This document shows positions 8,855 through 43,461 of a stretch of 64,000 bases of DNA, piece after piece. Made by a program: the position numbers and the translations under genes. The notes under the pieces were generated by a model. That model was not told the DNA's origin, made no database searches, and was given only the letters and a program-made list of their open reading frames with translations. The stretch comes from Streptomyces sp. NBC_01476 (GTDB lineage Bacteria; Actinomycetota; Actinomycetes; Streptomycetales; Streptomycetaceae). The stretch is from the NCBI RefSeq assembly GCF_036227265.1, contig NZ_CP109446.1:3667001-3731000 (forward strand). Direction: 5' to 3'. Every line of letters begins with the position of its first letter. Position 1 is the stretch's first letter.

Positions 8855-11800
8855 ATGGAGACGGTCGACGGACGGTTCCGGATCACAGGGATCGTGGGAC
8901 GCGGGAACATGGGCGAGGTGCACCGGGCCGAGGACCTCCAGGCAGCCCCGGACTCCCCGCACCGCGAGGTCGCGGTCAAGACCGTGCTGCGCGGCCGTAC
9001 CGGTGTCGCGGTCGACGCCTCGGGACCCGGGAAGGAGGTGGACCGCTTCCGTCGCGAAGTGCGCATCATGCGGATGCTCTCCCAGGGACATCCGAACCTC
9101 ACCCTGCTGATCGACGGCGGGGTGGACCGGACGCCGGGCGGCAGCGGACTGCCTTACCTGGCCATGGAGCTGCTGGACGGCCATCCGCTGGCGGATCTCA
9201 TCGACGAGGAACCCCAGCTCCCGATCTCCTGGGTCGCCGCGATCGGGGCGCAGATCGCCGCCGGCCTCACTGCCGCGCACACCGCCGGAGTCGTCCACCG
9301 CGACTTGAAGCCGGCCAATGTCATGCTGACCCGCGACGGCACGCTCAAGATCCTCGATTTCGGCATGGGTTCGATCGTCGACGACCCCGACCAGACGCGC
9401 CTGACCAGTACAGGCGTCAGCGTCGGCACGGCCCGGTACATGGCGCCCGAGCAGTTTCGTGCCGAGCGGGTCTCGGCCCTGGCCGACCTCTACGCGCTCG
9501 GCTGCATCCTGTACGAACTGCTGATCGGGCGGCCGCCGTTCTCCGCCAAGACCCCCTATGAGCTGTCCGAGCAGCACCAGCACGAGCAGCCGCCGCGGCT
9601 GACCCTCGTACGCCCGGATCTGCCCTCCGAGCTGGTCCGGCTGGTGGACCGCCTTCTGGAGAAGGACGCCGAGCTGCGGCCCGAGAACGCCGCCCTGGTC
9701 CGGGAGGTGCTGGTCCCGCTCGCGCTCGCGCCGGACCGCACGGCCTCCCTGCTCGCTCCGCACTGGCAGGTGATGGACCCGGTGGCGCGGCTGCGCGCCC
9801 TGCTTCCCGAGCGCGCTCCCGCCGCGTCGACGCCGGTGCCGCGCAGGGAGCCGCGCCTACCGGAGGCCATGGATGTCTTCGGTATCCATGCCGACCTGAT
9901 CAGCGAATACATGAGCTTCACCAAGAGTGCGACGGTGATCCGGGACGCCCGGATCACCGGCTTCGTCGAGGACGACCTCGCAGCCAAGTCGCAGTGGCCC
10001 GACCCGTGGCTGTCGCTGAACCCGTTCTTCGCCGACGGTGGCCAGGTCACCGACCTCGTGCGCGACGGAGTACTGCACCCCAAGTGCGCGGAGATCTTCC
10101 AGGCCGGCAAGAAGGCGACCTCTCGCCGGCCGGACGGCCGCCCACTGACCTTCCACCTTCACCAGCGGGAGGCGATCGAAGCCGCGCAGGCGGGCGACTC
10201 CTATGTCCTCACTACGGGCACCGGTTCCGGCAAGTCGCTGGCGTACATCGTTCCGATCGTGAACCGGGTACTGAAGGAGCGTCAGGCGGCTGGACCCGGA
10301 ACCCCGGGCCGGGTGCGTGCCATCGTCGTCTACCCGATGAACGCGCTGGCCAACTCCCAGCTGATGGAGCTGGAAAAGTACCTGCGCCACGGTTTCGGAG
10401 GGGGCCGCGAGCCGGTCACCTTCGCCCGCTACACCGGCCAGGAGTCCGATGAACAGCGTCGGGAGCTGCGTAAGAACCCTCCGGACATCTTGCTGACCAA
10501 CTACGTGATGCTTGAACTGATGCTGACCCGGCCGGACGACCGGTCCAGCCTGATCCGCATGGCCGAGGGGCTGCAGTTCCTTGTCTTCGACGAGCTGCAC
10601 ACCTACCGCGGTCGGCAGGGCGCGGATGTGGCGTTCCTGATCCGACGGGTCAGGGAGGCCTGCCGGGCCTCGGCAACTCTGCAATGCATCGGTACGTCGG
10701 CGACCATGTCCACCGAGGAGTCCTGGAAGCAGCAGCGGCGCGAGGTGGCAAAAGTCGCCGGGCGGCTGTTCGGCACGACGGTGCTGCCGGAGCGGGTCAT
10801 CGGCGAGACCCTGATTCGGGCGACCGAAGAGGCACCTGCGACCATGCCCGCCGAGCGGCTGCGAGTACCGGCGGCGCCCCGCTCGTACGAAGCCCTCACG
10901 AAGGACCCGCTGGCCCGCTGGGTGGAGTCCCGGTTCGGTTTGGAGCGCGAAGAGAGCACTGGGCGGTTGCGCCGCTGTTCCCCAAGTACCCTCGAAGCAG
11001 CGGCACTTGAGCTCTCCGCGCAGTACGGGGTGGCCGAGGAGCGCGTGCGCGAGGCGATCCGGACGACCCTGGAGGCGGGCGCGCAGGCCAAGCATCCGGT
11101 GACGGAACGGCCGCTGTTCGCGTTCCGGCTGCATCAGTTCCTCTCCAAGGGCGACACCGTCTACACGACGCTCGAGGATCCGCTCACCCGGCCGCTGACC
11201 CGCACGTACCAGCTGGAGCAGCCGGACAGCGATGGCAAGCCGCTGTTCCCGCTGGCATTCTGCCGCGAGTGCGGCCAGGAGTACCTGACGGTCTGGCGCA
11301 CCGAGGAGGGCGGCGCCTTCCAGTACGAGCCGCGCAGGAACACCGCCGCTTCCGGCGGCCGCGACGGGGAGGGGTACCTGTACCTGGGCATGCCCGGGGA
11401 GGATTACGAGTGGCCGGCTGATGCGCAGAAGGCCGTGGACGACCGACGGCTGCCGGAGTCATGGCTGGAACCGGACGCGCAGGGCGTAACGGTCGTCAAG
11501 AAGTCGTACCGGCCCCGAGTGCCCAAGCGCGTCGTCGTGGACGCGTACGGAAACGAGTCCGCCGAGGGACTGGCGGCGGCTTTCGTCCCGGCACCGTTCC
11601 TTTTCTGCGTGCACTGCCAGGTCTCCTACGAGCAGACCCGGGGCCGGGACTTCGCCAAACTGGCTGCCCTGGACCAGGAAGGCCGTTCCTCGGCCACTTC
11701 GCTGATCTCCGCATCGATCCTGAAGTCCCTGCGGGCGGTGCCTGCAGAGAGCCTCGGCAAGGAGGCGCGCAAGCTGCTCACCTTCGTCGACAACCGGCAG

Positions 11801-14800
11801 GACGCCTCACTGCAGGCCGGACACTTCAACGACTTCGCGCAGGTGACGCAGTTGCGGGGATCCCTGTACCAGGCCGCGGTGCGGGCGGGTGACGAAGGGC
11901 TGCATCACGATGACCTTGCCGAGGCCGTCACCGAGGTGATGGGGCTCTCGCCGCGCGCGTACGCGGCCGGCACGGACCTGGCGCCCTCCATGGAACGGCG
12001 TGCCGTCAAGGCGTTCCGAGACATCGTCGGCTTCCGCCTCTACCGCGACCTGGAGCGCGGCTGGCGCATCACGATGCCGAACCTGGAGCAGACGGGGCTG
12101 CTGCGCATCGACTACGAGGACCTGCACTGGATCGCTGAGAAGCCCGATCGCTGGCAGTCCGCCCACGAAGTACTGCGCGGCGCCGACCCTGCGCTGCGAG
12201 AGGAGATCGCCCGGGCGCTGCTCGACTACATGCGGCGTGCTCTCGCCATCGACGTGCAGTACTTCCGGGACGACTTCGACACCCTGCAGCGGGCGAGCGA
12301 GGAGCGCCTCACCGGGCCGTGGGTACTGGGCGAGAGCGACCGGCCGGCCGTCGGCACCGCCTACCCGTACGGCTCACGGCCGGGCATGGAGCGTTCCGCG
12401 CAGTTCCTGTCGGCCCGTGGCAAGTTCGGCAAGTACCTGCGGCGGAACATGCCCGAACTGCGCGATCTGCCGCTGGACGACGTTCAGTGCGTCATCGAGG
12501 ATCTGCTGAAGGTGCTGCGGGACGCGCAACTGGTCAACGAGGTGGAGGTGGCCCCCGAGCGTTCCGGGCCGGCCTTCCGCCGCCGAGCGGCGGAGAAGCG
12601 CACCGGTTACCGGGTCTCGGCCGCCGCGCTGATCTGGCGGGCCGGGAGCGGCGAACGGGGCGCTGTCGATCCGCTGGCGCGCACTTACAGCAGCGGTGAA
12701 GGCCCGCGCGTCAATCCGTTCTTCCGCGACCTGTACAAGACCGCGGCGGCCGAGCTGGCCGGCCTGTTCGCGAGGGAGCACACCGCGCAGGTCACTCCGG
12801 AGGACCGGCTGGAGCGCGAGAAGGAGTTCCGCAGCGCCGATCTGCCCCTGCTGTACTGCTCGCCGACGATGGAGCTCGGCGTGGACATCTCCTCGCTCAA
12901 CGCCGTACTGATGCGCAATGTGCCGCCGACACCGGCGAACTACGCGCAGCGCTCCGGCCGGGCAGGCCGTTCCGGCCAGCCCGCGCTGGTGGCCACGTAC
13001 TGCGCGACGGGCAACAGCCACGACCAGTACTACTTCCGCCGCTCCCAGGACATGGTGTCAGGGCAGGTGGCCCCGCCGCGCCTGGACCTCGCCAACGAGG
13101 ACCTGGTCCGCTCCCACCTGCAGGGCATCTGGCTGGCCGAGACCGGCATGAAGCTGGGCTCCGCGATCCCGGACATCGTGGACGTCGCCTACGACCCGGA
13201 GACCGGCGACCGGCCCGACCCCCACATGCAGCTGCCGCTGCTTCCGCACGTCCGCGATCTGTCCCTGGACGAGGATGCCCGCCGCCGCGCTGTCGCCGCC
13301 TCCCGCACCATCCTCGCGCCGCTGATCGCGGACTTCGAGGCCACCACCTGGTGGTACGACGAATGGATCGAAGACCGGATCGAGCGGGGCCCGAAGGAGT
13401 TCGACGCCTCCTTCGACCGGTGGCGTCAGCTGTTCCGGGCGGCCGTCATCGACCAGTACGAACAGAACAAGCGCGTCGTCGACCACACCCTCTCTCCGGG
13501 TGAGCAGGGCCGGGCGCGCTCCCGCCGGCGCGAAGCCGAGACGCAGACGAACCTGCTGCTGAACCGCTCCAGCGACAACAAGTCGATGATGAGCGACTTC
13601 AACCCGTACCGCTACTTGGCGTCCGAGGGGTTCCTGCCCGGCTACAGCTTCCCGCGACTTCCACTGGCTGCGTACATCCCGCGCTCCGGCAACCGCCGCA
13701 ACGCCGACGGCGACTACCTGCAGCGTCCCCGGTTCCTCGCGATCCGCGAGTTCGGCCCCGGCGCACTCATCTATCACGAGGGCGCCCGCTACCAGGTCAC
13801 CCGGGTCCAGCTGCCGCCGGACGCGTCAGGCGACTTGGCGACGGCAGAGGCCCGGCGCTGTGACGGCTGCGGCTACCACTACGACGTCAAGGTCGGCTCC
13901 GACATCTGCGCAATGTGCGGCGAGCCGCTGACGGGCAAGCGCACCGGCCTGTTGCACCTGCACACCGTGTACACCACCCCGCGCGAGCGGATCTCCTCCG
14001 ACGAGGAGGAACGCCGCCGGGCCGGCTTCCGTTTGGAGACCTCGTATGCGTTCCAGGACCACGGTGCCCGCAAGGGACGCCTCACCTCCCATGTGACCGA
14101 CGCCGACGGCGGCCTCGTCCTCGACCTGGACTACGGTGACTCGGCGACAATCCGTATCACCAATCTCGGCCGTGTCCGCGACAAGCAGGGGGAGACGGAC
14201 GGCTACTGGCTCGACCTGAGCGACGGGCGCTGGCTCAACGACCGGGCCGCCGCGGACGCCATCGAGGGCACCGGCATGCCGGTGGTCGACGAGGACGGCA
14301 ACGAGAAGCACCGCAAAAAGCGGGTCCTGCCCTATGTCGAAGATCGCCGCAACATCCTCGTGGTCACCCTGGACGAGGCACAACCCGAGCCCATCGCCTT
14401 GTCGTTCCTGTACGCGCTGGAGCGTGGCATCGAGGCCGCGTTCGAGCTGGAGGACTCCGAACTGACCGCGGAGCTGCTGCCTCCGGACGGCGGCCCGCAC
14501 CGCCGCATGCTGTTCACGGAGGCCGCTGAAGGCGGCGCCGGTGTCTTGCGCCGGATCCAACATGACAAGGACGCCTTCGCCAAGGCAGCCCGGACAGCCC
14601 TGGAGATCTGCCACTTCGACCCGGAGAACGGGGAGGACAAGGGCGGGCCGACGGACAACGAGAAGTGCGCCCGCGGCTGCTATGCCTGCCTGCTGACCTA
14701 CGCGAACCAGACGCACCACCGCCAGCTGAGCCGCCACGCGGCCCGCCCGCTGCTGGCGCGGCTGGCCGGCGCCCGTACCGAGCGGGAGGACCGCGGCGAG

Positions 14801-15205
14801 TCCCGCAGTGAACGGTTCCGCAGACTCGCCCCGGCGGTCAGCAACGGGAACAGCGCGTCCAACGGCGACCCAGCCTCCTCGCTGACACCGCTGGAGGCGA
14901 ATCTGGCGGACCTCACCGCGGAGGGAGACCTGCTCGGCTGGCTCAAGGCGAAGGGCCACCGGTTGCCGGATGAGGTCAAACCCTTCGTCCCAGCGGCGGC
15001 GGCGTGCCCCGACCTCGTCTTCCACCTGGACGGTGCCAACCTCGCCGTGTTCGTCGACATCCCCGGCCACGCACCCGACTCCACCCGCGACCTCGAAGCC
15101 GGCTATCGCCTGGAGGACGCGGGCTGGGATGTCCTGCGGTTCCCGACGGACGCGGACTGGGACGCCATCGCGGACACCAACGCCGCCTACTTCCACCTCC
15201 GTTGA
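8855..15205 (+). CDS. Ser/Thr kinase-SF2 helicase-DUF1998-nuclease-like fusion
   Basis: This is one 2116-residue polypeptide. Residues ~7-290 are a complete Hanks-type kinase: GRGNMGEV loop, K42 in V-A-V-K, HRDLKPAN with D150, DFG, A-P-E-Q-F. Residues ~345-1400 are a superfamily 2 helicase: TTGTGSGKSLAY (Walker A, K460), FDELH (~579), GTSATMS, and a distal helicase core with LGVDISSLN and RSGRAGRSG. Cysteine pairs near 804, 917 and 1669 look like zinc ribbons. A DUF1998-type region follows (EAAEGGAGVLRRI, CARGCYACL). The last ~110 residues (P-D-L-V-F-H-L, L-A-V-F-V-D, then YRLEDAGWDVLRFP) resemble a Vsr/PDDEXK-type nuclease. The ATG at 8855 follows GGGGAGGGG; the frame is open upstream to 8702. 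It heads an operon with DrmD- and DrmMI-like genes. The kinase fused to a DUF1998 helicase is unusual; Pgl/BREX systems use a separate kinase (PglW). Confidence 0.85.
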   Translation: METVDGRFRITGIVGRGNMGEVHRAEDLQAAPDSPHREVAVKTVLRGRTGVAVDASGPGKEVDRFRREVRIMRMLSQGHPNLTLLIDGGVDRTPGGSGLPYLAMELLDGHPLADLIDEEPQLPISWVAAIGAQIAAGLTAAHTAGVVHRDLKPANVMLTRDGTLKILDFGMGSIVDDPDQTRLTSTGVSVGTARYMAPEQFRAERVSALADLYALGCILYELLIGRPPFSAKTPYELSEQHQHEQPPRLTLVRPDLPSELVRLVDRLLEKDAELRPENAALVREVLVPLALAPDRTASLLAPHWQVMDPVARLRALLPERAPAASTPVPRREPRLPEAMDVFGIHADLISEYMSFTKSATVIRDARITGFVEDDLAAKSQWPDPWLSLNPFFADGGQVTDLVRDGVLHPKCAEIFQAGKKATSRRPDGRPLTFHLHQREAIEAAQAGDSYVLTTGTGSGKSLAYIVPIVNRVLKERQAAGPGTPGRVRAIVVYPMNALANSQLMELEKYLRHGFGGGREPVTFARYTGQESDEQRRELRKNPPDILLTNYVMLELMLTRPDDRSSLIRMAEGLQFLVFDELHTYRGRQGADVAFLIRRVREACRASATLQCIGTSATMSTEESWKQQRREVAKVAGRLFGTTVLPERVIGETLIRATEEAPATMPAERLRVPAAPRSYEALTKDPLARWVESRFGLEREESTGRLRRCSPSTLEAAALELSAQYGVAEERVREAIRTTLEAGAQAKHPVTERPLFAFRLHQFLSKGDTVYTTLEDPLTRPLTRTYQLEQPDSDGKPLFPLAFCRECGQEYLTVWRTEEGGAFQYEPRRNTAASGGRDGEGYLYLGMPGEDYEWPADAQKAVDDRRLPESWLEPDAQGVTVVKKSYRPRVPKRVVVDAYGNESAEGLAAAFVPAPFLFCVHCQVSYEQTRGRDFAKLAALDQEGRSSATSLISASILKSLRAVPAESLGKEARKLLTFVDNRQDASLQAGHFNDFAQVTQLRGSLYQAAVRAGDEGLHHDDLAEAVTEVMGLSPRAYAAGTDLAPSMERRAVKAFRDIVGFRLYRDLERGWRITMPNLEQTGLLRIDYEDLHWIAEKPDRWQSAHEVLRGADPALREEIARALLDYMRRALAIDVQYFRDDFDTLQRASEERLTGPWVLGESDRPAVGTAYPYGSRPGMERSAQFLSARGKFGKYLRRNMPELRDLPLDDVQCVIEDLLKVLRDAQLVNEVEVAPERSGPAFRRRAAEKRTGYRVSAAALIWRAGSGERGAVDPLARTYSSGEGPRVNPFFRDLYKTAAAELAGLFAREHTAQVTPEDRLEREKEFRSADLPLLYCSPTMELGVDISSLNAVLMRNVPPTPANYAQRSGRAGRSGQPALVATYCATGNSHDQYYFRRSQDMVSGQVAPPRLDLANEDLVRSHLQGIWLAETGMKLGSAIPDIVDVAYDPETGDRPDPHMQLPLLPHVRDLSLDEDARRRAVAASRTILAPLIADFEATTWWYDEWIEDRIERGPKEFDASFDRWRQLFRAAVIDQYEQNKRVVDHTLSPGEQGRARSRRREAETQTNLLLNRSSDNKSMMSDFNPYRYLASEGFLPGYSFPRLPLAAYIPRSGNRRNADGDYLQRPRFLAIREFGPGALIYHEGARYQVTRVQLPPDASGDLATAEARRCDGCGYHYDVKVGSDICAMCGEPLTGKRTGLLHLHTVYTTPRERISSDEEERRRAGFRLETSYAFQDHGARKGRLTSHVTDADGGLVLDLDYGDSATIRITNLGRVRDKQGETDGYWLDLSDGRWLNDRAAADAIEGTGMPVVDEDGNEKHRKKRVLPYVEDRRNILVVTLDEAQPEPIALSFLYALERGIEAAFELEDSELTAELLPPDGGPHRRMLFTEAAEGGAGVLRRIQHDKDAFAKAARTALEICHFDPENGEDKGGPTDNEKCARGCYACLLTYANQTHHRQLSRHAARPLLARLAGARTEREDRGESRSERFRRLAPAVSNGNSASNGDPASSLTPLEANLADLTAEGDLLGWLKAKGHRLPDEVKPFVPAAAACPDLVFHLDGANLAVFVDIPGHAPDSTRDLEAGYRLEDAGWDVLRFPTDADWDAIADTNAAYFHLR

Positions 15206-15245: not shown

Positions 15246-18203
15246 ATGAGCCTCACGTACACCGCCGGCTCGCTCGTGGCCGCCCGCGGCCGCGAATGGG
15301 TGGTGCTGCCGGAGAGCGCCCCCGACATGCTGGTGCTGCGCCCCCTGGGCGGGAGCGAGGACGACATCGCAGCCGTCTTCCCCGCGTTCGAGGACGTCCT
15401 TCCCGCCGAGTTCGCCGTGCCGAGCGCGGACGACCTGGGCGACCAGCGCGCCGCCGGCCTGCTGCGTACCGCTCTGCGCATCGGGTTCCGGTCGGGTGCG
15501 GGCCCGTTCCGCTCGCTGGCGTCGATCGCCGTGGAACCACGCGCCTATCAGCTGGTCCCGCTGCTCATGGCGCTGCGGCAGCGCACTGTGCGGCTGCTGA
15601 TCTCGGACGACGTCGGTATCGGCAAGACGATCGAGGCGGGTCTGATCGCCAAAGAGCTGCTCGCACAGGGCGAGGCGACCCGACTGGCCGTGTTGTGTTC
15701 CCCGGCGCTGGCCGAGCAGTGGCAGACCGAGCTGCGGGAGAAGTTCGGCATCGACGCCGAACTGGTCCTGGCCTCCACGGTGTCGCGCCTGGAGCGCGGT
15801 CTGGAGCTGGGCCAGTCCCTGTTCGACAGGCACCCGTTCACGATCATCTCGACGGATTTCATCAAGTCGACCCGCCACCGCGAGGACTTCCTGCGGCGCT
15901 GCCCCGATCTGGTGATCGTCGACGAGGCCCACACGTGTGTGGCCGCCGACGACACCGCGCAGGGCAGCACGTCCTCCTCGAACCAGCTCCGCTACGAGCT
16001 CCTGCGGAAGGTCTCCGCCGGCGCCGACCGTCATCTACTGCTGCTGACCGCGACCCCGCATTCCGGCAAGGAGTCCGCCTTCCGCAACCTGCTCGGCCTG
16101 GTGCGGCCCGAACTGGCGACGTTGGACCTGGAAGCCCCGGCGGGACGGGCGAAGCTGGCCGAGCATTTCGTGGCCCGCAAGCGCGCCGACGTCCGTGAGT
16201 ACCTCACCAGGGAGGACGGCCTCGCCGACGACTCCCTGGCCGAGCGGACCGCCTTCCCGTCCGACCGCTGGACGAAGGACGAACCGTACAAGCTGACCCC
16301 CGATTACCGGGCGCTGCTCGACGACGCCATCGCCTATGCCAGGGACCGCGTCCAAGCGGCTGGCGAGCAGGGCAAGCGGGAGGCCCGTATCGCCTGGTGG
16401 TCCGTGATCGCGTTGCTGCGTTCGATGGTCTCCTCGCCGGCAGCCGCTGCGCAGACCCTGAAAACTCGCTCCGAGTCTGCCGCCGCCCGCACTGCGCACG
16501 AGGCGGACGTGCTCGGCGCCCCGGTGGCTGCTGACTCCGCGGACAGCGACCGGCTGGAAGGCATGGACGTCGCGCCGGGGGCAGCCGAGACGGAGGAGGC
16601 GGGCGCCCGGCTGCTCGAACTCGCCGAGCGGGCCGAAAAGCTCGTCGGTCCGGCCCAGGACGCGAAGCTGAAGGCGCTCACCCGGCACCTGAAGAACCTC
16701 ATCGCCGACGGCTACAACCCGATCGTCTTCTGCCGCTACATCCCCACCGCCGAGTACCTCGCCGAGCAGCTCGACGGCAAACTCGGCAAGAAGACCAGGA
16801 TCGCCGCCGTGACAGGCACCGTCTCCCCGCAGCAGCGCCTGGAGCGCATCGAACAGCTCGCCGCCGAGTCCGCCGAGGAGGCCGGCGACCCAGCCGTTCG
16901 CCACGTGCTGATCGCCACTGACTGCCTCTCCGAGGGCGTCAACCTCCAGCACCACTTCGACGCCGTAGTCCACTACGACCTGGCCTGGAACCCGACCCGC
17001 CACGACCAGCGAGAGGGCCGCGTCGACCGCTACGGCCAAAAGCGCGACCAGGTCCGTGTCATCACCATGTTCGGCGAGGACAACGGCATCGACGGCAAGG
17101 TCCTCGAGGTGCTGTTCGAGAAGCACCGCCAGATCAAGAAGGACCTGGGCATCTCCGTCTCCGTCCCCGACGAGACCGCCTCCGGCGTCACCGACGCCGT
17201 CGTGGAGTGGCTGCTGCTGCACGGACGGCAAGGCAGCCAGGAGAGTCTGTTCGACATCGGCGGCCGCCAGGAGTCCTTCGACCGCATCGAGCGCGAGTGG
17301 AACTCGGCCGCCGAACGCGAGAAGACCTCCCGCTCCAAGTACGCCCAGCGCGCCATCCACCCGGAGGAGGTGGCTCGCGAGGTCACCGCCGTGCGGGCCG
17401 CGCTCGGCGGTGCCCAGGAGGTCCGCAGCTTCGTCCTGGAGGCGCTGCGCGACCTGGACGCCCTGGTCCGTGACCCGCGCGACGGGAGCGGCGACTTCAC
17501 CGCCCAGGCGGGCGGCGCCCCGGCAGGCTTGCGGGACGCGCTCGCCGCAACCCTCGGCGGCCGGCTCGTCGAGGAGGACCGCGAGATCCCGTTCCGCACC
17601 ACGCCGGCGATCGCCCGCGGCGAGGCCGCCCTCGTCCGCACCGACCCGGCGATCGGAGCCATCGCCTCCTACGTCCTGGATTCGGCACTCGACGCGAACA
17701 CACCCGGCCCCCGCCCCGCCCGCCGCTGCGGTGTGGTGACCACGGGCGCGGTCACCACGCGCACCACGCTCCTGCTGGTCCGCTACCGCTTCCACCTCAC
17801 CCTCCCGTCCCGCACCGGAGAACGGCAGGTGGTGGCCGAGGACGCCCGCCTGCTCGCCTACGAGGGCATGCCGTCGCGCGCCCGCTGGCTGGACGACGAC
17901 GCGGCCACCGCCCTCCTCGCGGCCGGCGCCACCGCCAACACCCATGAGCAGTCGGCCCGCAATCACATCTCCCGCACTCTGGACGGCCTGCCGGACCTGT
18001 CCGCGCACCTCACCGAGTACGGCGCCGGCCTGGCCGCGGAACTCGACGCCTCGCACCGCCGGGTCCGCAAGGCCAACGAGGAGATCGTCCGCGGCCTGAA
18101 GGTCGTACCGCAGGAACCGGCCGACGTCCTCGGCGTGTATGTCTACCTGCCGGAACAGCCCGTCGCCCCTGCCGCCTCTACCGTGTCCGGAGCCGAAGCC
18201 TGA
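15246..18203 (+). CDS. drmD: DrmD-like SNF2-family helicase
   Basis: This is a 985-residue SNF2/RapA-type ATPase. Motifs in order: DDVGIGKTIEAG (Walker A, K127), V-I-V-D-E-A-H (~223-229), LLTATPHSGKE, VFCRYIPTAEYLAEQL, TDCLSEGVNLQHHFD and the motif VI segment QREGRVDRYGQ. DrmD is the SNF2-type subunit of class 1 DISARM, where it accompanies the adenine methylase DrmMI; the length and the immediately following methylase fit that pair. It starts 40 bases after the kinase-helicase gene behind AGGAACTGGG, and its stop overlaps the methylase ATG (ATGTGA-type, TGATG). RapA-like ATPases of other systems (for example DpdE) are the alternative. Confidence 0.8.
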   Translation: MSLTYTAGSLVAARGREWVVLPESAPDMLVLRPLGGSEDDIAAVFPAFEDVLPAEFAVPSADDLGDQRAAGLLRTALRIGFRSGAGPFRSLASIAVEPRAYQLVPLLMALRQRTVRLLISDDVGIGKTIEAGLIAKELLAQGEATRLAVLCSPALAEQWQTELREKFGIDAELVLASTVSRLERGLELGQSLFDRHPFTIISTDFIKSTRHREDFLRRCPDLVIVDEAHTCVAADDTAQGSTSSSNQLRYELLRKVSAGADRHLLLLTATPHSGKESAFRNLLGLVRPELATLDLEAPAGRAKLAEHFVARKRADVREYLTREDGLADDSLAERTAFPSDRWTKDEPYKLTPDYRALLDDAIAYARDRVQAAGEQGKREARIAWWSVIALLRSMVSSPAAAAQTLKTRSESAAARTAHEADVLGAPVAADSADSDRLEGMDVAPGAAETEEAGARLLELAERAEKLVGPAQDAKLKALTRHLKNLIADGYNPIVFCRYIPTAEYLAEQLDGKLGKKTRIAAVTGTVSPQQRLERIEQLAAESAEEAGDPAVRHVLIATDCLSEGVNLQHHFDAVVHYDLAWNPTRHDQREGRVDRYGQKRDQVRVITMFGEDNGIDGKVLEVLFEKHRQIKKDLGISVSVPDETASGVTDAVVEWLLLHGRQGSQESLFDIGGRQESFDRIEREWNSAAEREKTSRSKYAQRAIHPEEVAREVTAVRAALGGAQEVRSFVLEALRDLDALVRDPRDGSGDFTAQAGGAPAGLRDALAATLGGRLVEEDREIPFRTTPAIARGEAALVRTDPAIGAIASYVLDSALDANTPGPRPARRCGVVTTGAVTTRTTLLLVRYRFHLTLPSRTGERQVVAEDARLLAYEGMPSRARWLDDDAATALLAAGATANTHEQSARNHISRTLDGLPDLSAHLTEYGAGLAAELDASHRRVRKANEEIVRGLKVVPQEPADVLGVYVYLPEQPVAPAASTVSGAEA

Positions 18204-21200
18204 TGTCCGCCGCCACCCGCACCGCTCTGGCCTTCACCGCCGTCACCACGGTCGGCGGGCTGCTCCCCTCCGACATGCTGCTGCGCATCGCCGAGGCTCG
18301 GAACCTGCCGGGCACCAAGCCCGCCGACTACGGCCTGCCCGCGTCGGTGCCCGTACGGGACGAGGCCGAGCGCGCCTGGGAGTACCTGAAGCCGCTCTGG
18401 CGCGAGCTGCGCGCCGCCCTGCCCTCCGACCCCACGACCGGGGCGCCCGCCGCCGACCCCACCGGCAGGGCCGGCACCGACTGGCTCGCCCAGCTCTTCC
18501 GCAAGCTGGACTTCGGCGCGCTCACCGAGGTCGGCCCGGACGGCATCCCCGCCGACTCCGACGCGGACAATCGCTTCCCGGTCTCCCACCGCCACGGCCC
18601 GGCCCTCGTGCATCTCCTGCACTGGAACCAGGAACTCGACAAGCGCCCAGCCCCCGGTCAGCTCCCCGCGCAATCCATGCTCCAGGACTGCCTCAACCGC
18701 ACCGAGGCCCACCTGTGGGCGATGCTCACCAACGGCCGCCACCTGCGACTGCTGCGCGACTCCTCGTCCTTCGCCACGGCGGCCTACGTCGACTTCGACC
18801 TGGAAGCCATCTTCGACGGTGAGCTGTTCAGCGAGTTCGTACTGCTGTACTCCGTGCTGCACGCGTCCCGGTTCACCGTGCCGGAGGGCGCGGCGCCTTC
18901 GGGGTGCTGGCTGGAGAAGTGGCGTGCCGAGGCTGTCACTTCGGGCGCCCGCGCCCTGGACCAGCTGCGCTTGGGCGTGCAGAACGCCCTGACCACGCTC
19001 GGCACCGGTTTCCTGCGTCACCCGGACAACTCCCGGCTGCGCGAGGACATTGACCCGAAGGCCCTCCGGGACGCCCTGCTCCGCCTTGTCTACCGGCTGT
19101 TGTTCGTCTTCGTCGCGGAGGACCGCGAGGCACTGCTTGACCCAGGGGCCGGCGAGCGGCAGCGGGAGGCATACGAGCGGTACTTCTCCTCTGCGCGGCT
19201 GCGTGAGCGAGCCCGCCGACGTCAGGGCACGGCCCACGGTGACCAGTACGAGGCTTTGCGCATCGTTCTCGGCGCCCTAGGAGCCGAGGGTGGTCGCCCC
19301 GAACTGGGCCTGCCCGGCCTCGGCGGCCTGTTCTCCCCCACGGACGCCGACACGCCGCTCGACGGCCTGAAGCTGTCCAACGAGGCCCTGCTGACCGCCG
19401 TCCGCCACCTCGCCCAGGTGCGCGACCCGGGCGCCCGCCGCTGGCGCTCCGTCGACTACCGCCACCTGGACGCCGAGGAGCTGGGCTCGGTCTACGAGTC
19501 CCTGCTGGAGCTGGAGCCCAAGCACTCCGCGACGGACCGTAGCTTCGAACTCATCGAGGTCGCAGGCAACAGTCGCAAGACGACGGGCAGTTATTACACC
19601 CCGTCCTCGCTCATCGAGTGCCTGCTGGATACGACGCTCGACCCGGTGATAGACGACGCCGTGTCGCGCGCCGAAAAGCGCGCCGCCGAGGCCGGCCGTC
19701 CCGATCCGGCCGACGACATCGTCTCCGAACTGCTCTCCCTGACGGTCTGTGACCCGGCCTGCGGCTCGGGCCACTTCCTCGTTGCCTCAGCCCGCCGCAT
19801 CGCTAAGCGCGTGGCGTCAGTCCGCGAGCGCAACCCGGAGCCGACGGTTGACGCCGTGCGCCATGCCCTGCACGAAGTCGTCGCCCGATGCATCTACGGC
19901 GTGGACCTCAACCCAATGGCGGTGGACCTGGCGAAGGTCTCGCTGTGGCTGGAGGCCCTGGAGCCGGGCAAGGCACTGGGGTTCTTGGACGCGCACGTCA
20001 GGCACGGCAACGGTCTGATCGGCGCGACGCCGAAGCTGCTGGCCGAGGGCATCCCGGACGACGCGTTCAAGCCCATTGAGGGCGACGACAGGAAGTACGC
20101 GGCCGGGCTCGTCAAGCGCAACAAGGCCCAGCGGAGCGGCCACGACGAACTCACCTTCGACACGGACACTTTGCCTGGCAACGAACGATACGCCGCCGAA
20201 TTCGCACGTATCACCGCCGCCTCTGCTGACCTCCTGGAGCACGTGCGGGCTCAGGAGTCCGCGTACCTTGCCTACACGGAGTCCACGGCCTACGTCCAGG
20301 ACATGCACGCCGCCGACTCCTGGTGCGCAGCGTTCGTCTGGCCCAAGCACGACGGTGCCCCCGAGGCCCCGACGGACCAGGTCTTTCGCGCCCTGCGCAG
20401 CCGCAACCAGTCCGCTGTCCCGGACACCACCCACGCCGAAATCCTGCGCCTACGCGACCAATACCACTTCTTCCACTGGCATCTGGAGTTCCCAGAGGTC
20501 TTCTCGGTCCCGAAATCGGGTGCGGGTGTCGGCGTCCAGCCGGGCACGGGCTGGGCCGACGGGTTCGACGCGGTGGTGGGAAACCCGCCGTGGGAAAGGG
20601 TCAAGCTTCAGGAGCAGGAGTTCTTCGCGCAGCGAGCCCCGGAGATCGCCGGGGCCAAGAACGCGGCGGCCCGCAAGGCCCTGATCGCAGCCCTCCACCA
20701 GGACCGCGACCGCTCGCACCTCGTCACCGAGTTCGAGGACTCCAAACGTCGGGCTGAAGGGGAGAGCCATTTCTTGCGGGCCGGCAACCGCTTCCCCCTC
20801 ACTGGCCGCGGCGACATCAACACCTACGCGGTCTTCACCGAGACCGGCCGCACGCTGACAGGCCCCCGGGGACGGACGGGCGTGATCGTCCCGACCGGCA
20901 TCGCGACAGACGCGACGACGCAGTTCTTTTTCAAGGATCTGGTCACGAAGGGGCAACTGGCCGCACTGTACGACTTCGAGAACGAGGACAAAGTATTTCC
21001 CGAAGTACATAACCAACTGCGCTTCTGCCTCTTCATGCTGCGCGGACAGGGCGATATTGACGATCACGCCCAGATCGTCTTCAAGGTTCGTCGGACCGAA
21101 CAAATTCCCGAGCGTCGTTACCAGTTGACGTCGGCGGAGATTCTCCTTCTCAATCCCAACACCGGTACCTGTCCAGTGTTTAGCAGTCGCCGCGATGCGG

Positions 21201-22330
21201 AGATCACCCTCAGTATCTACCGCCGTATCCCCGTCCTCGTCGACGAGACAAAGACCACCGACGGCAACCCTTGGGGCATCTCGTTTATGCGCATGTTCGA
21301 CATGTCGAACGACTCCCAACTCTTCCGCCCCAACGCCCAGCGTGGCGAAACCTTCGACGACCTCCTCAAAGACGGCTGGCACCTCGACGGCAACCTGCTG
21401 GTGCGCGGCGAAGAGCGTCTGCTGCCACTCTATGAGGCGAAGATGCTCCACCACTACGACCACCACTTCTCGACCTACGAGGGCGCAACGGAGAAGCAGC
21501 TCAATAAGGGCACCCTTCCCCGCTTCACCCTCGACCGACACCAGGCACCCGATGCTGCTCCGCTCCCCCGCTACTGGGTCCCTGAACAGGACGTCGCCAC
21601 TGAGGAGTTCGACAAGAAAGGCGCAGAGTTCACGGTGTCGGGCGTGCGCAGCCGCTTGTCCGCCAAGGGATGGGACCGGGAATGGCTGATGGGGTGGCGG
21701 GACATCACGAACAAGAGCAATGAGCGAACGTTGATCACTGCCGCCGCGCCCGCTCACGGCTTCGGCCACCCCTTTCCTCTCGTACTCCTCGCCACGCCGA
21801 ATCACGCCCCGCTTCTCGCTGCCGTCTGGTCATCTATGGCCTGCGACTTCGCCGTCCGCCAGAAGATCGGCGGCACCCACCTAACGTACGGATATGTTGA
21901 GCAGCTCCCCATCCCCTTCCCCGACCAACTCACGCCTCATAACAACACAATTCTCCCCCGCCTTCTCGAACTCACCTACACCGCAAATGACATGGCCGCC
22001 TTTGCCCGCGACCTCGGTGACGCAGGATCCCCTTTCCGCTGGGATGAGCACCGTCGCTCCGTCATCCGTGCCGAGTTGGACGCACTCTTTTTCCACATCT
22101 ACGGAATCGACCGCACCGACGCCGCATACATCCTTGACACCTTCAACGTCACCCGCGACAACGACATCAAGGCCCATGGCACCTACCGCACCAAGGACCT
22201 AATCCTCGCCGAGTACGACCGCATGGCCGCTGCGGGGCTGACGCTGGAGAGCCCGCTCAGCGAAGGCGAGGGCGGGACCTACCGCTCCACCCTCACCCCG
22301 CCCCCCGGCCACGGGCCCCGCCACAGCTGA
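18203..22330 (+). CDS. drmMI: DrmMI-like adenine-specific DNA methylase (Eco57I type)
   Basis: This 1375-residue N6-adenine methylase has motif I DPACGSGHF at ~517-525, a motif II region with G-V-D-L-N-P-M-A-V-D-L-A-K, and the catalytic motif IV NPPW at ~794-797 inside DAVVGNPPWERVK. Its order and size are those of Eco57I-type class 1 DISARM methylases (DrmMI), which mark host DNA. A PglX-like origin is possible since the families are related, but the upstream neighbour is DrmD. The ATG overlaps the DrmD stop. A strong hairpin follows the stop, so this ends the operon. Confidence 0.82.
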   Translation: MSAATRTALAFTAVTTVGGLLPSDMLLRIAEARNLPGTKPADYGLPASVPVRDEAERAWEYLKPLWRELRAALPSDPTTGAPAADPTGRAGTDWLAQLFRKLDFGALTEVGPDGIPADSDADNRFPVSHRHGPALVHLLHWNQELDKRPAPGQLPAQSMLQDCLNRTEAHLWAMLTNGRHLRLLRDSSSFATAAYVDFDLEAIFDGELFSEFVLLYSVLHASRFTVPEGAAPSGCWLEKWRAEAVTSGARALDQLRLGVQNALTTLGTGFLRHPDNSRLREDIDPKALRDALLRLVYRLLFVFVAEDREALLDPGAGERQREAYERYFSSARLRERARRRQGTAHGDQYEALRIVLGALGAEGGRPELGLPGLGGLFSPTDADTPLDGLKLSNEALLTAVRHLAQVRDPGARRWRSVDYRHLDAEELGSVYESLLELEPKHSATDRSFELIEVAGNSRKTTGSYYTPSSLIECLLDTTLDPVIDDAVSRAEKRAAEAGRPDPADDIVSELLSLTVCDPACGSGHFLVASARRIAKRVASVRERNPEPTVDAVRHALHEVVARCIYGVDLNPMAVDLAKVSLWLEALEPGKALGFLDAHVRHGNGLIGATPKLLAEGIPDDAFKPIEGDDRKYAAGLVKRNKAQRSGHDELTFDTDTLPGNERYAAEFARITAASADLLEHVRAQESAYLAYTESTAYVQDMHAADSWCAAFVWPKHDGAPEAPTDQVFRALRSRNQSAVPDTTHAEILRLRDQYHFFHWHLEFPEVFSVPKSGAGVGVQPGTGWADGFDAVVGNPPWERVKLQEQEFFAQRAPEIAGAKNAAARKALIAALHQDRDRSHLVTEFEDSKRRAEGESHFLRAGNRFPLTGRGDINTYAVFTETGRTLTGPRGRTGVIVPTGIATDATTQFFFKDLVTKGQLAALYDFENEDKVFPEVHNQLRFCLFMLRGQGDIDDHAQIVFKVRRTEQIPERRYQLTSAEILLLNPNTGTCPVFSSRRDAEITLSIYRRIPVLVDETKTTDGNPWGISFMRMFDMSNDSQLFRPNAQRGETFDDLLKDGWHLDGNLLVRGEERLLPLYEAKMLHHYDHHFSTYEGATEKQLNKGTLPRFTLDRHQAPDAAPLPRYWVPEQDVATEEFDKKGAEFTVSGVRSRLSAKGWDREWLMGWRDITNKSNERTLITAAAPAHGFGHPFPLVLLATPNHAPLLAAVWSSMACDFAVRQKIGGTHLTYGYVEQLPIPFPDQLTPHNNTILPRLLELTYTANDMAAFARDLGDAGSPFRWDEHRRSVIRAELDALFFHIYGIDRTDAAYILDTFNVTRDNDIKAHGTYRTKDLILAEYDRMAAAGLTLESPLSEGEGGTYRSTLTPPPGHGPRHS

Positions 22331-35616: not shown

Positions 35617-36738
35617 TCAGGCCACTCTGACCCACCCCTGCAACCCCTCCAGGTGCCGCGGCAGCCGGCTGCCCTGCCAGCCCAGGACCAGCCGCTGCCG
35701 GGCCCGGGTGATCATGACGTAGTAGGCCATGCGCAGGGATGCCGCGGTGGGGTCGGTGGCGGCGTCGGTCTCGGTGTCGGGGATGACGACGGTGTCGAAG
35801 TCGAGGCCCTTGGTGCTGGCGCGGTGGACCAGGACGACGCCGGGGCGGGTGAGGTCGAGGTCGCGATAGCGGCCCGAGGCTGCCGCCGAGCTGTAGAGCT
35901 GGGGCTCGTGGGCGAGTCCGGCCCGTTCGAGGCGCGGCATCAGATCGGCTCCGGTGCGAAGGGAGTTGACGATGACGCCGACCCGGTGCCGTGGCTGTTC
36001 GGTTGCCATGGTGGCGATGTCGTCGGCGAGATCCTTGTTACTGGAGTAGGAGCGGATGACGGGCCGGGGGCCGCTGCGAAAGGGCATGTCAGGGCGGGTA
36101 CCACCAGTGCGGAAGTGCTCCGCGAGGGAGGAGATCTCACGGGTGTTGCGGTGGTTCCCGGCGACCTCGACGCGTCCCGTGGACCGGCCGAGGGCGTCGG
36201 TGATCTCGGTGAGGGTGCAGTTCGTCTCGGTGAGGCGCTGGCACTCGTCAGCGAACACCGTGACCGAAGCGGCGGCGAGGCGGGCCAGCCGGTAGAAAGC
36301 TGGCGGCAGGTCTTGACCCTCGTCGATGACGAGGTGAGGTGTGGACGCGTCGGTCTCTCCGAAGGTGGCTGCGGCTCGGTGGGTGAGGGCCGTCCAGTCG
36401 AACCAGCCGTCCTCGGTGCGCGGTGCGTCGCGGCCGAAGCGGCGCAGGATCCAGCTGTGGGCAGTGGCGGCTTCGACGGGTGCGCCGGGGATGGTGATGC
36501 CTTGAAGGGTGTCGCCCAGGAGCTGGCGAAGGAGGTTGGAGCGCGACAGCAGCAATGTGGGGCGGCCGGTGAGGGCGAGGTGGACGGCGCGATGCGCGGC
36601 GAGCAGGCTCTTGCCACTGCCGGGCGGGCCGCTGACGACATGGTTACCCCTGAGCGGGAGGGTGTCCAGGCAGTCACGCTGAGCCGAGGTGAGGTCGGTG
36701 TGGAGAACGGGGGATTTCGCAGTGGTCATGGGTGTCAT
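35617..36738 (-). CDS. compact UvrD/Rep-like SF1 helicase
   Basis: This 373-residue SF1 ATPase has GPPGSGKSLLAAHRA (Walker A, ~35-49), V-I-D-E-G-Q-D-L-P (Walker B/motif II), G-N-H-R-N-T-R-E-I (motif IV-like), and a C-terminal S-T-K-G-L-D-F-D-T-V-V-I-P followed by Y-V-M-I-T-R-A-R-Q-R-L (motifs V-VI). It is about half the size of UvrD and lacks the large insertion domains. The ATG at 36738 overlaps the DrmB stop (ATGA), so it is the fourth gene of the sigma-drmA-drmB operon. It could supply the unwinding or nuclease-recruiting role that DrmC normally fills, which is inference only. Confidence 0.82.
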   Translation of the reverse strand: MTPMTTAKSPVLHTDLTSAQRDCLDTLPLRGNHVVSGPPGSGKSLLAAHRAVHLALTGRPTLLLSRSNLLRQLLGDTLQGITIPGAPVEAATAHSWILRRFGRDAPRTEDGWFDWTALTHRAAATFGETDASTPHLVIDEGQDLPPAFYRLARLAAASVTVFADECQRLTETNCTLTEITDALGRSTGRVEVAGNHRNTREISSLAEHFRTGGTRPDMPFRSGPRPVIRSYSSNKDLADDIATMATEQPRHRVGVIVNSLRTGADLMPRLERAGLAHEPQLYSSAAASGRYRDLDLTRPGVVLVHRASTKGLDFDTVVIPDTETDAATDPTAASLRMAYYVMITRARQRLVLGWQGSRLPRHLEGLQGWVRVA

Positions 36739-38609
36739 CCCAGAGCGGTGGCGGCAGCGTATTCGCGGCTCGCGGTGAGGACGTCGGTGAAGTAGCCGGG
36801 GACGCCGGCGGAGCCGACGATCAGGGCGCGGTCGAGCAGGGTGTTGCCCGTCTGGCAGCTCGTCTCGGGCAGCAGGGTGCAGGCGTGGCAAGCAGCCCGG
36901 TTGAGGTTACCGAAGCCCTGTCCGGTGTGCTCGGCGCACAGCGGGTCGGCGGAGCACCAGGCCGCAGCTTCCAACATCCGGATGAGGGTTTCGGCGAAGT
37001 GCGGTGCTTCTCCCTGCCGGACGAGGCCGCCGAGCGTGCCTGCCGCATCACCGGCGGCCGTGTAGATCAGCAGCCCGCGCTGGCCGTACTCGGGGCGGCC
37101 GTAAACGCGCTCGCAGAGGCTTGCCGTGGTGTAGCCGGAGTCGAAGGAGAGCTGGCGGATGAGGAGGTGGGCGAGAGTGTGCAGGAGCAGGAAGCGGGGT
37201 GAGAGTTTGCTGCCCACGGTGTCGGCGAGTTGCTCGTCCCGGAACGACGCGTCGAGGTCCGTACGGACTCCGTCGACGTGCGCCTGAACGCGGGGGTCGC
37301 CTTCCCAGGCGATCAGGCGTTGTTCGTCGAGGGTGAGGACGATGCCCTCGCCGTAGACCTCCGTCGCGGGCAGCCAGCGCAGGCGGCCGCTGGTGTCGGC
37401 GGATACATGAGTGCCGCCCGGCGAGTGGCGACGGAATCCGGTCAGTGCCCGCACCTCGCGGAGGCGGTCGGCGAGGACGACGCCATCGATGTGCGTGTCG
37501 AGGGCGGCCCAGGGCTCCTCCCTCTCACCGTCGAGACCGAGACCACTTCGGCGTATCGCGAACTCCTTTGTGGGCTCGGGAAGTTCGACGGCATCGAAGG
37601 CGTACCACTCGTCGCGGCTCAGGTCGATCTTTTCGGAGTCCGATCGGCCGCCGGACAGCATCGCCGGTGCACCCGTGGCCTCTGCAACGAGTTGGTCGAT
37701 GAGGCTGTCGGGGGCGTCGGTGTCCTCCTTGATCATGCCGCGGAAGGCATCGGCTCTACGCGTACCGAGTGCGCCCAGCAGGATCGGCCAGTAGTCGTGA
37801 CCGCGCACCGCCTCTGCCGTGTCCTGCTCCGCGCGCGGGGGTTCGGCGGACTGGGGGATGGCGAGTGCCGAGTAGACGACCGGGTAGTAGACATTGCCGG
37901 CGGTGCGCTGCACGATGTGGACCTGCTGGCCGCAGGTGGCGTTCTCGTTCCGGCGCTGCCAAGGATTGCAACCCGAGCAGCGTCCACCCTGGGGTCCGAG
38001 AATGTCGAGCAGGTCGCGCTCGGCAGCGCACGGCTTGCCGTCCAGCCTGGTCGCCCCGCAACGCACCGAGAGCGCTTCGAGTCCTGAGGCGCGGTCGGCC
38101 ACTCGGAAGCTGAGACGGCGCGCCTTCCAGGCATGCTTCGACTCGGAGCAGGAAGAGCGCAGTTCGGGTGCGAGGTGGGAGTGGGCCCAATACCACCAGT
38201 CCACGTCGTCGAGATGCCCGTCCGGGCAGATGCGGACGAACCGCATCGGGGTGAGGCGGGGTGCGGCCGCGCAGGACGTGCAGACGGGCGGCTCACCGGG
38301 CTTCTCGTTCTCGCGCAGGAAGCGGACCATGGCCCGGCAGGAGCCGCAGAACAGCCAGCCGGGGAAGCGCACATAGGGAACGCCGGGGCGGTCGGGCTGG
38401 TCGTAGCGGTCGTTGAGGGTGGCGGGTGCGGCGAAGAGGCCCTTGACGCCCAGCCGAACGGCAAGTCGTTCGGAGAGGACGGGGGTCTTCAGCTGCGGCC
38501 AGGACTCGATGCCCGCGGCGACGAAGGACTCCCCCTGGACATCGAGGATGGCGCCGACGCCGAACGGCAGCACCGTCTGTGCCTGGCGGACCCGGAGTTT
38601 GCGCTTCAC
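36735..38609 (-). CDS. drmB: DrmB-like DUF1998 protein of DISARM
   Basis: DrmB is the DUF1998 partner of the DISARM helicase DrmA. This 624-residue protein starts R-K-L-R-V-R-Q-A-Q-T-V-L-P-F-G-V-G-A-I-L, which is the DrmB N-terminal pattern. It has several zinc-binding cysteine pairs (C-G-S-C-R, C-T-S-C-A-A, C-S-G-C-N) and ends with the DUF1998 domain (LLHTLAHLLIRQLSFDSGY and G-F-G-N-L-N-R-A-A-C-H-A-C-T). I chose the GTG at 38609, which overlaps the DrmA stop by four bases (GTGA) and follows GGGAGCGGG; an ATG at 38639 is also in frame. Neighbour DrmA makes the identification strong. Confidence 0.87.
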   Translation of the reverse strand: MKRKLRVRQAQTVLPFGVGAILDVQGESFVAAGIESWPQLKTPVLSERLAVRLGVKGLFAAPATLNDRYDQPDRPGVPYVRFPGWLFCGSCRAMVRFLRENEKPGEPPVCTSCAAAPRLTPMRFVRICPDGHLDDVDWWYWAHSHLAPELRSSCSESKHAWKARRLSFRVADRASGLEALSVRCGATRLDGKPCAAERDLLDILGPQGGRCSGCNPWQRRNENATCGQQVHIVQRTAGNVYYPVVYSALAIPQSAEPPRAEQDTAEAVRGHDYWPILLGALGTRRADAFRGMIKEDTDAPDSLIDQLVAEATGAPAMLSGGRSDSEKIDLSRDEWYAFDAVELPEPTKEFAIRRSGLGLDGEREEPWAALDTHIDGVVLADRLREVRALTGFRRHSPGGTHVSADTSGRLRWLPATEVYGEGIVLTLDEQRLIAWEGDPRVQAHVDGVRTDLDASFRDEQLADTVGSKLSPRFLLLHTLAHLLIRQLSFDSGYTTASLCERVYGRPEYGQRGLLIYTAAGDAAGTLGGLVRQGEAPHFAETLIRMLEAAAWCSADPLCAEHTGQGFGNLNRAACHACTLLPETSCQTGNTLLDRALIVGSAGVPGYFTDVLTASREYAAATALG

Positions 38610-41600: not shown

Positions 41601-41761
41601 GCAGCGAGGGCGAGTTGCCGCTGGAGGTCCGCCTGTTGCGGGTAGAGCGTGCCCATCAGGTACTGCCGGTCCGGCGGCGCGTCGAGCACTTCGTCGTCAC
41701 CGCCAGCGGGGCCGACGAGCTGGCGGGAGAGGTAGTCCGCCAGCTCCTGGCGCGGGTCCAT
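38606..41761 (-). CDS. drmA: DrmA-like DISARM helicase
   Basis: This 1051-residue SF2 helicase has a long N-terminal region (~1-400), Walker A FPTGGGKTEAYL (~430), C-P-W-C-G and a following cysteine pair in an insert, the box Q-D-E-L-H-L-L-T-G-P-L-G-T (~632), V-A-A-T-A-T-I-R-R-S, and a C-terminal helicase segment with L-S-V-G-V-D-V-K-R-L and Y-I-Q-A-T-S-R-V-G-R. The F-P-T-G-G-G-K-T and Q-D-E-L-H forms are typical of DrmA. It sits between the sigma factor (64-base gap) and DrmB (4-base overlap). Its DrmD and DrmMI partners lie more than 13 kb away. Confidence 0.88.
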   Translation of the reverse strand: MDPRQELADYLSRQLVGPAGGDDEVLDAPPDRQYLMGTLYPQQADLQRQLALAADDPDAPGAEQDAPDVDPAPDPVPETNSWLPASLGVSFYTDAERVEVTCTGARYETSRSEPGRGRRWRRVPHMPETHTIGPDRETVSVLDGRAEIRVRRRSYGEGTLVTVALVNAARHDGSDGKAPSWDDMLFQCGLTVRPAGGAVLPYPSVRLASRDPEERELRLQYRHVVTHAVGHGCAVREYHAEGEGGGVLLLACEALPRAEVSAIRAGGPLDAPALTISHLADPAVSTDQLREELAEFAASYHAWYVGQRSVEVPAWGQEAAERILGRIHQAVTRIEAGVRTLCDPNRPELLDAFRIAQRAMLLQMRHSAPDQAGQRRRRSEAVAIDPPVDPKATWRPFQLAFFLLALDGVAEPGHRDRDTTDLIWFPTGGGKTEAYLLLAAFVIALRRIRGEGGGTAVLSRYTLSLLTTQQFQRAATTICAFEHLRRSEPGLGLGDEPITVGLWVGETTTPNKFEAAKDAFEQQREATHPEDVFILDRCPWCGTRILPPTHSSVRSDYGVRADTDDFAFFCTRDECAFHDLLPVAVVDQHLYRQPPTFVLGTVDKFARLAWERDSGHLFGAGVGNPPPSLIIQDELHLLTGPLGTTVGLYEAAILELCTDSAGRPPKIVAATATIRRSAEQVRALHHQDVQLFPPSGLDARDSFFAVPDSGSQGRLYLGVMAQGHTAGRGAVATTAAMLQGVHQLPEEHRDDYWTLVAYHHSLRELGRTVTAAGDEIPAQLRGLDEGAGVRALDDGDVQELTSNLPRAEQPILLDRLEKPWTDPRSVSFLPCTNMLSVGVDVKRLAYLLMQGQPKTTAEYIQATSRVGRHHVPGLVVTYFNATRPRDRSHYETFLDYHRALYRYVEPASVTPWSPPARRRALHAALVILVRHRLGLSAENQAGRITLHKDEAERIADALAERAAIAESGASGADSDAVRADVRAELGYLLDDWYQQAKAAAAEGKDLHYRSQGKGQHNLLKTFEQRYGLWETLNSMRSVDRECQITVTGAGK

Positions 41762-43382: not shown

Positions 43383-43461
43383 AGCGCCCCCACTCCAGCG
43401 ACCAAGCGCCGATTCTGCTCGAGCGAGCCAGCCTGGCGCAGCCACACTCTAGGGTCAGCCC

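Follow-up and report, generated by a model that had tools for sequence, protein, structure and literature searches.

The 64,000-nucleotide stretch of Streptomyces sp. NBC_01476 analysed here (contig NZ_CP109446.1, positions 3,667,001 to 3,731,000; henceforth the window) comes from an 8.4 Mb genome represented by a single contig, and encodes a 2116-residue protein in which a Hanks-type Ser/Thr kinase domain precedes a superfamily 2 (SF2) helicase of the YprA type, an MZB/DUF1998 domain and a C-terminal domain with a predicted Vsr-like nuclease fold. Genes for a SNF2-type helicase and a PglX-like DNA methylase follow it, and by gene order and domain composition we assign the three genes to ARMADA Type I (Table 1; L and G numbers below are our own handles). 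What is new at this locus is the kinase, together with a recurrent set of companion genes coding for a sigma-70-like protein, DrmA, DrmB and a small UvrD-like ATPase; the rest belongs to a known class.

The open reading frame (ORF) of the fusion runs on the forward strand from 8702 to 15205 without interruption and from the ATG at 8855 contains 0 internal stops; its GC content at third codon positions (GC3) is 0.88. In the numbering of the 2116-residue product, Pfam recognises Pkinase at residues 10-282 (E 6e-42), DEAD at 436-620 (E 8e-27), Helicase_C at 1305-1374 (E 3e-11) and MZB/DUF1998 at 1853-1946 (E 1.7e-8), so that the complete kinase, SF2 helicase and DUF1998 segment which a first-pass annotation had read into one protein are all borne out. 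CxxC pairs at 803, 918, 1669, 1685 and 1942 predict zinc-binding modules in the RecA2 and oligonucleotide-binding (OB) regions, as in ARMADA Type I, and the helicase Walker A K460 and Walker B D579/E580 are kept in 106/106 of the helicase bodies compared below.

Table 1. Features of the window (positions counted from its first nucleotide)
Feature	Position	Strand	Remarks
Kinase-YprA/DUF1998 helicase-Vsr-like fusion, 2116 aa	8855..15205	+	ArmC homologue; the YprA protein of ARMADA Type I
Hanks Ser/Thr kinase domain, residues 6-287	8870..9715	+	Pfam, residue conservation, PknB likeness
Post-kinase linker with W..xDPxxxLR-like tail	9716..9868	+	evolves fast (median omega 0.28)
DEAD domain / RecA1, Walker A K460, Walker B D579/E580	10160..10714	+	Pfam, conservation
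Helicase_C / RecA2	12767..12976	+	Pfam
MZB/DUF1998 zinc-binding domain	14411..14692	+	Pfam
Vsr-like C-terminal domain (predicted), residues 2018-2116	14906..15202	+	motif degenerate in the window's subclade
SNF2/RapA-type helicase, BrxHII/DrmD-like	15246..18203	+	ArmA homologue
PglX/DrmMI-like N6-adenine DNA methyltransferase	18203..22330	+	ArmB homologue; start overlaps SNF2 stop
nSTAND1 NTPase fused to WD40 repeats	25614-29321		between ARMADA and DrmAB
Small UvrD-like ATPase	35617..36891	-	associated set; weak Pfam and PADLOC matches
DrmB (DUF1998)	36735..38678	-	associated set
DrmA helicase	38606..41761	-	associated set
Sigma-70-like protein, regions 2, 3, 4	41826..43445	-	associated set
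McrB-McrC	43578-46648	+	
GajB-like UvrD	46685-48820	+	
HsdM-like methylase	48876-50552	-	
Type ISP/IIG restriction enzyme	51569-54880	-	

ARMADA was described as a class in 2025, its Type I comprising a YprA helicase, a BrxHII-like helicase and a PglX-like methylase, with a predicted Vsr tail and zinc modules reported (Bell et al., PMC12458937). The operon of the window corresponds to this plan, a single protein holding both the helicase core and DUF1998, and there is no GajB-like RelE-fused fourth gene, the mark of Type II, beside the methylase: the next gene encodes EcsC, and the GajB-like gene (46685) comes after McrBC, 24 kb from the methylase. Druantia DruE models give the helicase part its best PADLOC matches, placing it by sequence nearer DruE than DrmA, in the defence (Druantia/ARMADA) branch. 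The first-pass annotation had regarded the protein as a fusion bridging Pgl and DISARM. The bridge gives way to identification as the ARMADA Type I helicase gene, and the fusion is unusual only in its extra kinase, since helicase, DUF1998 and Vsr domain in one protein are normal for ARMADA; the two downstream partners had not been considered.

A search for kinase-helicase homologues and their neighbours, as proposed there, found the kinase fused in 51 of the 106 helicase bodies. Where the flank of a fused locus was long enough, SNF2 followed downstream in 34/34 cases and the methylase in 31/31. At least 80% of the helicase part is present in 66 plasmid records. Ten of these were opened: L009 is unannotated and the other nine all annotate the downstream gene as 'helicase-related protein'. 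A methylase is annotated after it in seven; intervening genes occur in L015, L016 and L018, and for L009, L012 and L017 it was tblastn alone that showed the methylase. Among 50,697 phage records there were 2 matches, each covering at most 23% of the query. We rejected EcsC (22480-23493) as a fourth component: of 29 fused loci with sufficient flanking DNA it was matched in 3, in two of these at 26-28% identity, and there was a further match in L154. By title or abstract we found no report of a kinase-helicase or kinase-ARMADA protein in the openly licensed PubMed Central literature. The word 'kinase' has 0 occurrences in the main text of PMC12458937 and is absent from the available text of a Druantia III preprint (PMC13192584), and the available text of a BREX survey treats PglW without the words DrmA, YprA, DUF1998 or ARMADA (PMC12839542).

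The sources of the 106 distinct helicase bodies were a genome contig scan (best 80 of at least 593 stretches), genome samples at genus, family and class level, and plasmids; frequencies among them are therefore not those of a census. Left out of the tree were L019 (the window itself, entered as WIN), L026 (distant), L127 (interrupted), L054 (contig end), the duplicates L061 and L085, and nine loci lacking one 1500-residue match (L016, L024, L025, L028, L029, L030, L048, L049, L067); L096 was kept though its C-terminus looks frameshifted. The kinase is fused in one ORF in 51 rows, separate and divergent in 4 and not seen in the available DNA of 51, the last including L063, where it was lost. 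Kinase and helicase share one ORF in 53 sequences, 52 of them distinct (counting the window and one duplicate pair). With the tail excluded from the tree, the fused rows constitute one clade of 52 with L063 as its one loss, spread over Streptomycetaceae, Micromonosporaceae, Pseudonocardiaceae, Nocardiaceae, Thermomonosporaceae, Nocardiopsidaceae and Glycomycetaceae; one fused row labelled Melainabacteria (L064) is probably a binning error. A Marinactinospora copy (L050) is 89% identical to the window, which points to horizontal transfer. These comparisons identify the fusion as a conserved lineage across several actinomycete families, not previously recognised, and dispose of the sequencing error joining two genes that the first-pass annotation had named as a possible refutation.

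A second architecture bears on the origin of the fusion. A separate Ser/Thr kinase gene stands head-to-head with the unfused helicase gene of ARMADA Type I, about 245-280 nt upstream and divergent from it, in four tree rows (L100, L103, L109, L040) and in L025, whose helicase is broken. In a reduced 33-row tree the helicases with divergent kinases are sister to the fused ones (SH-aLRT support 99.6). In the kinase tree the fused kinases form one clade (28/28 sampled, support 99); the fused and divergent sets stand apart, yet one origin is not rejected (approximately unbiased test, p-AU 0.389). Both kinds of kinase have the W..xDPxRP-like post-kinase tail, which is weak in the deepest fused rows and, among kinases examined, also occurs in a further one from the genome of the window (L131). 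One recruitment followed by two architectures would be the simplest history, and two independent recruitments are not favoured.

The kinase domain appears constrained. K42, E68, the HRD at 148-150, N155, the DFG at 168-170 and the activation-loop T184 are invariant in 53/53 kinase sequences, giving the complete predicted catalytic set of a Hanks-type Ser/Thr kinase (beta3 Lys, alphaC Glu, HRD, Asn, DFG), and the nearest solved structure is PknB (E 1e-47). Over 14 pairwise comparisons with the window, the median ratio of nonsynonymous to synonymous divergence (omega, NG86 estimates) is 0.119 for the kinase, 0.154 for the helicase, 0.281 for the linker and 0.313 for the Vsr-like domain.

The C-terminal domain has had a different fate. 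By itself the tail of the window protein gives no significant sequence match, the best being DUF559 (E 0.067), and its AlphaFold model (predicted local confidence, pLDDT, 72) gives no Foldseek match at E <=0.001. Among 72 homologous tails, at E up to 0.1, DUF559 is matched by 59 (best 9e-8), MTES_1575 by 51 and Vsr by 7. A second aligner places the model closest to the homing endonuclease I-Bth0305I (Z 8.0; 88 residues, 2.8 A), followed by a Neisseria endonuclease-like protein (7.0), VRR_NUC domains (6.6, 6.4) and E. coli Vsr (6.2, 6.2); the Z values are middling, and the top six are all nucleases or nuclease-like. I-Bth0305I, Vsr and DUF559 are all of the EDxHD/PD-(D/E)XK type. We therefore predict a Vsr-like nuclease fold, as the first-pass annotation had suggested.

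Its further suggestion, that this domain may supply a missing nuclease activity, is not supported here. The D..DG..H motif is intact in 42/54 rows outside the fused clade and in 18/18 other fused rows but in 0/34 of the window's subclade (33 fused rows and L063), which has not conserved the G-x-x-H and has lost the H in 26/34; the window copy itself keeps D2053, D2068, H2072 and D2079, with I in place of G. The ratio of nonsynonymous divergence (dN) in the Vsr-like domain to that in the helicase has a median of 2.56 in 13 subclade pairs against 1.37 in 18 pairs with intact motifs (p 0.0055, by a Mann-Whitney test which takes no account of shared ancestry, on pairs picked by hand from the tree); 3/13 subclade pairs lie below the intact median (0.96, 1.19, 1.29), and high intact pairs reach 3.43 and 2.24. 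The motif is also missing from twelve unfused ARMADA Type I-like helicases (L045, L087, L090, L093, L096, L099, L101, L104, L120, L015, L017, L018), of which L096 looks frameshifted in this region, and nuclease loss thus seems a repeated event in such proteins. In the window's subclade the kinase thus appears to be retained while the nuclease relaxes. Its arrival did not coincide with the decay of the tail, because other fused proteins keep both; the idea that the kinase replaces the nuclease is weakened by retention of the motif in all 18 fused proteins outside the subclade and by its loss in 12/54 rows outside the fused clade.

PglX-like methylases mark DNA, and that of the window is a mosaic. 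Among 15 systems compared, six (L050-L053, L069, L092) have helicases that share 85-89% identity with that of the window. Their methylases match the window's at 82-96% identity in residues 1-250 and 501-625, at 63-93% in 251-500, where L050 and L053 are low, and at 37-81% in 626-1250. This agrees with an exchangeable part for target recognition, and hence with marking of self against non-self.

YprA proteins translocate. Based on these observations we propose that the window encodes an ARMADA Type I system with an on-board kinase switch on its YprA helicase, a reading to which we give a probability of about 0.6; operon type, domains, conservation and single-lineage fusion are drawn from sequence, and the role of the kinase is our inference. 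The PglX-like methylase would mark self DNA with exchangeable specificity, and phage DNA that is unmarked or replicating would be recognised by the SNF2 and YprA motors, which would move along it. The kinase, joined where the N-terminal strand of the helicase begins, would serve as the switch: when several helicases load on foreign DNA, their kinases could trans-phosphorylate each other on the activation loop (T184 region), and restriction would be licensed once the active kinase had phosphorylated the complex or a nearby protein, for instance the sigma factor. As the fused nuclease appears to be decaying in the window's subclade, the DNA damage would there probably come from the motors, or else from the DrmAB-UvrD or McrBC modules encoded in the same region. 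A DNA-triggered switch on the motor complex seems to us the most likely role of the kinase, ahead of an effector or a sigma-acting one.

Several observations weigh against this proposal. Many ARMADA Type I helicases have no kinase (51/106 rows, 11 of them with less than 1.2 kb of upstream DNA), so the kinase is not needed for the core mechanism; its omega is not lower than that of the helicase in 6/14 pairs; and the four motif residues kept in the window copy mean that its nuclease could still be active. FastTree, run on all 106 rows, leaves the sister relation of the fused and divergent-kinase groups without resolution. The BrxA-like helical insert after RecA1 is a typical ARMADA feature (PMC12458937), and fold searches with our model of this region (pLDDT 79) returned no BrxA row. 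The anti-phage activity reported in PMC12458937 is that of a Type II system, from E. coli.

The alternative that fares best, though we think it unlikely, makes the kinase the effector: the helicase would sense phage DNA and the kinase phosphorylate host proteins, causing arrest or suicide, with the nuclease tail dispensable. Decay of the nuclease motif in a subclade whose kinase has the lowest median omega would agree with this, as would the possible suicidal action of PglW kinases on self proteins that a 2026 BREX analysis suggests (PMC12839542). Against it stand the 18 fused proteins that keep both kinase and nuclease motif, from which it follows that the kinase did not replace the nuclease on arrival, and the case of Type II ARMADA, whose anti-phage protection requires every gene and the motor motifs and operates without abortive infection (PMC12458937).

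The companion genes suggest another role for the kinase. In the window the DrmA-DrmB pair lies about 21 kb downstream. In a family sample of 121 genomes, 14 carry the kinase-ARMADA and nine of these, the window included, have a DrmA of at least 69% identity, always less than 24 kb away on the opposite strand, and in 9/9 the genes for sigma, DrmB and UvrD are alongside; no other genome of the sample has a DrmA that similar (Fisher 1.8e-10, not corrected for shared ancestry). Two layouts recur, a convergent one with McrB, McrC and the GajB-like gene beyond (the window and L150-L155) and a divergent one in which the sigma gene faces the kinase gene (nine loci: L156, L157, L057, L059, L060, L094, L098, L102, L128), their aligned ends being 200-340 nt apart in the five best-aligning loci (L060, L094, L102, L128, L156). 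In the deep fused member from Glycomyces (L082/L172) the set follows downstream in the same orientation, and altogether the four genes occur together in at least 15 genomes (window, L150-L163, L172). These associations would suit a kinase that mainly regulates expression via the neighbouring sigma factor, in an inducible locus with two arms, ARMADA and sigma-DrmAB-UvrD.

We regard such a role as less likely still. A close DrmA is absent from 5/14 kinase-ARMADA genomes and from 17/24 named records, which have none or only distant ones (39-43%); the other seven have a DrmA of at least 64%, on the ARMADA contig in six (L051, L057, L062, L082, L092, L108; in L051, L062, L092 and L108 the search covered DrmA only, not sigma) and about 245 kb from ARMADA in L063. 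Six genomes without kinase-ARMADA carry the set at 54-62%, with sigma divergent from DrmA, one of them (G058) having an unfused ARMADA on another contig, and the counts could be explained by joint transfer of one island. Two distant DrmA loci that were opened (L164, L165; about 40% identity) gave no sigma or UvrD match. Of the papers listed by a single search, none dealt, judging by title or abstract start, with a sigma-containing DISARM. The distribution of the set indicates a separate unit that often travels with the kinase-ARMADA and is not an obligate part of it. A bolder conjecture, to which we give equally little credence, joins both into one composite phosphorylation-controlled locus, in which DNA engagement would signal via sigma and induce a DISARM-type killing arm as the helicase's own nuclease decays.

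A housekeeping MrfA-like helicase acting in DNA repair with an accessory kinase, which the MZB/MrfA Zn-binding domain might suggest, is very improbable given the patchy distribution (the fused form is present in 14/121 genomes of the family sample), the flanking SNF2 and PglX-like methylase genes, the DruE matches and the location in a defence island. A sequencing or assembly artefact joining two genes is refuted by the in-frame arrangement repeated in 53 sequences.

If, as we propose, the kinase gates the motor, ARMADA- and DISARM-type systems would gain a tunable on/off control, and the restraint of DNA translocases from attacking the host would become testable by single-residue mutants in one polypeptide. 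A kinase fused to a DNA motor permits a direct test of phosphorylation control over ARMADA-type immunity, and the lineage offers a natural comparison series: kinase absent, kinase separate, kinase fused, and kinase fused in a protein whose nuclease is decaying.

With ARMADA Type I the operon shares, besides gene order, the one-protein helicase core and DUF1998, zinc-binding inserts and the C-terminal Vsr-type domain, its abundance in Actinomycetota; it differs in the N-terminal Hanks kinase, the degenerate nuclease motif of the subclade and the frequent sigma-DrmAB-UvrD neighbour. DISARM likewise has a YprA-type helicase, DUF1998, a SNF2 helicase (DrmD-like) and an adenine methylase (DrmMI-like), but its DrmA and DrmB are separate adjacent genes, whereas here one ORF holds both parts plus a kinase. 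PADLOC was run on 16 window proteins, not on every window gene, and among the matches listed for these there was no DrmC (the PLD nuclease of DISARM), no PglZ or BrxC and no Druantia partner; the DruE-like helicase has SNF2 and the methylase as partners instead. For DruE no kinase is mentioned in the available text of PMC12458937 and PMC13192584. BREX type 2/Pgl also combines a kinase with a PglX-like methylase in one defence operon; its kinase is PglW, a NERD nuclease with tandem kinases (PMC12839542), whereas the kinase here is fused to a helicase, and the PglW match is limited to the kinase part of the fusion protein. Mad6, the Ser/Thr kinase of the methylation-associated defence system (MADS), is similar in its kinase domain, with a match of 127.6 bits that is far below the NCBIfam cut-off of 460. 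We know of no description of Mad6 as helicase-fused.

By its gene content the window is a dense defence island. The order of McrBC and the GajB-like gene beside sigma-DrmAB is kept in the six relatives L150-L155; the nSTAND1-WD40 protein is likely a further conflict-system protein, and its first 560 residues have no match in the opened stretches of these six. An HsdM-like methylase is found upstream near some fused loci, in either orientation. The conjugative plasmid pNOCA01 of Nocardioides (L010, 1682-27979) has, one after another, DrmA-DrmB, a cytosine methylase, ARMADA Type I in unfused form and an AAA ATPase-McrC pair. The SNF2 protein (15246-18203) is matched end to end by the 985-residue PADLOC model PDLC02853, named 'DpdE', at 1654 bits, other DpdE models among the matches listed reaching at most 129 bits; this model may have been built on ARMADA proteins, and could make ARMADA loci be called Dpd.

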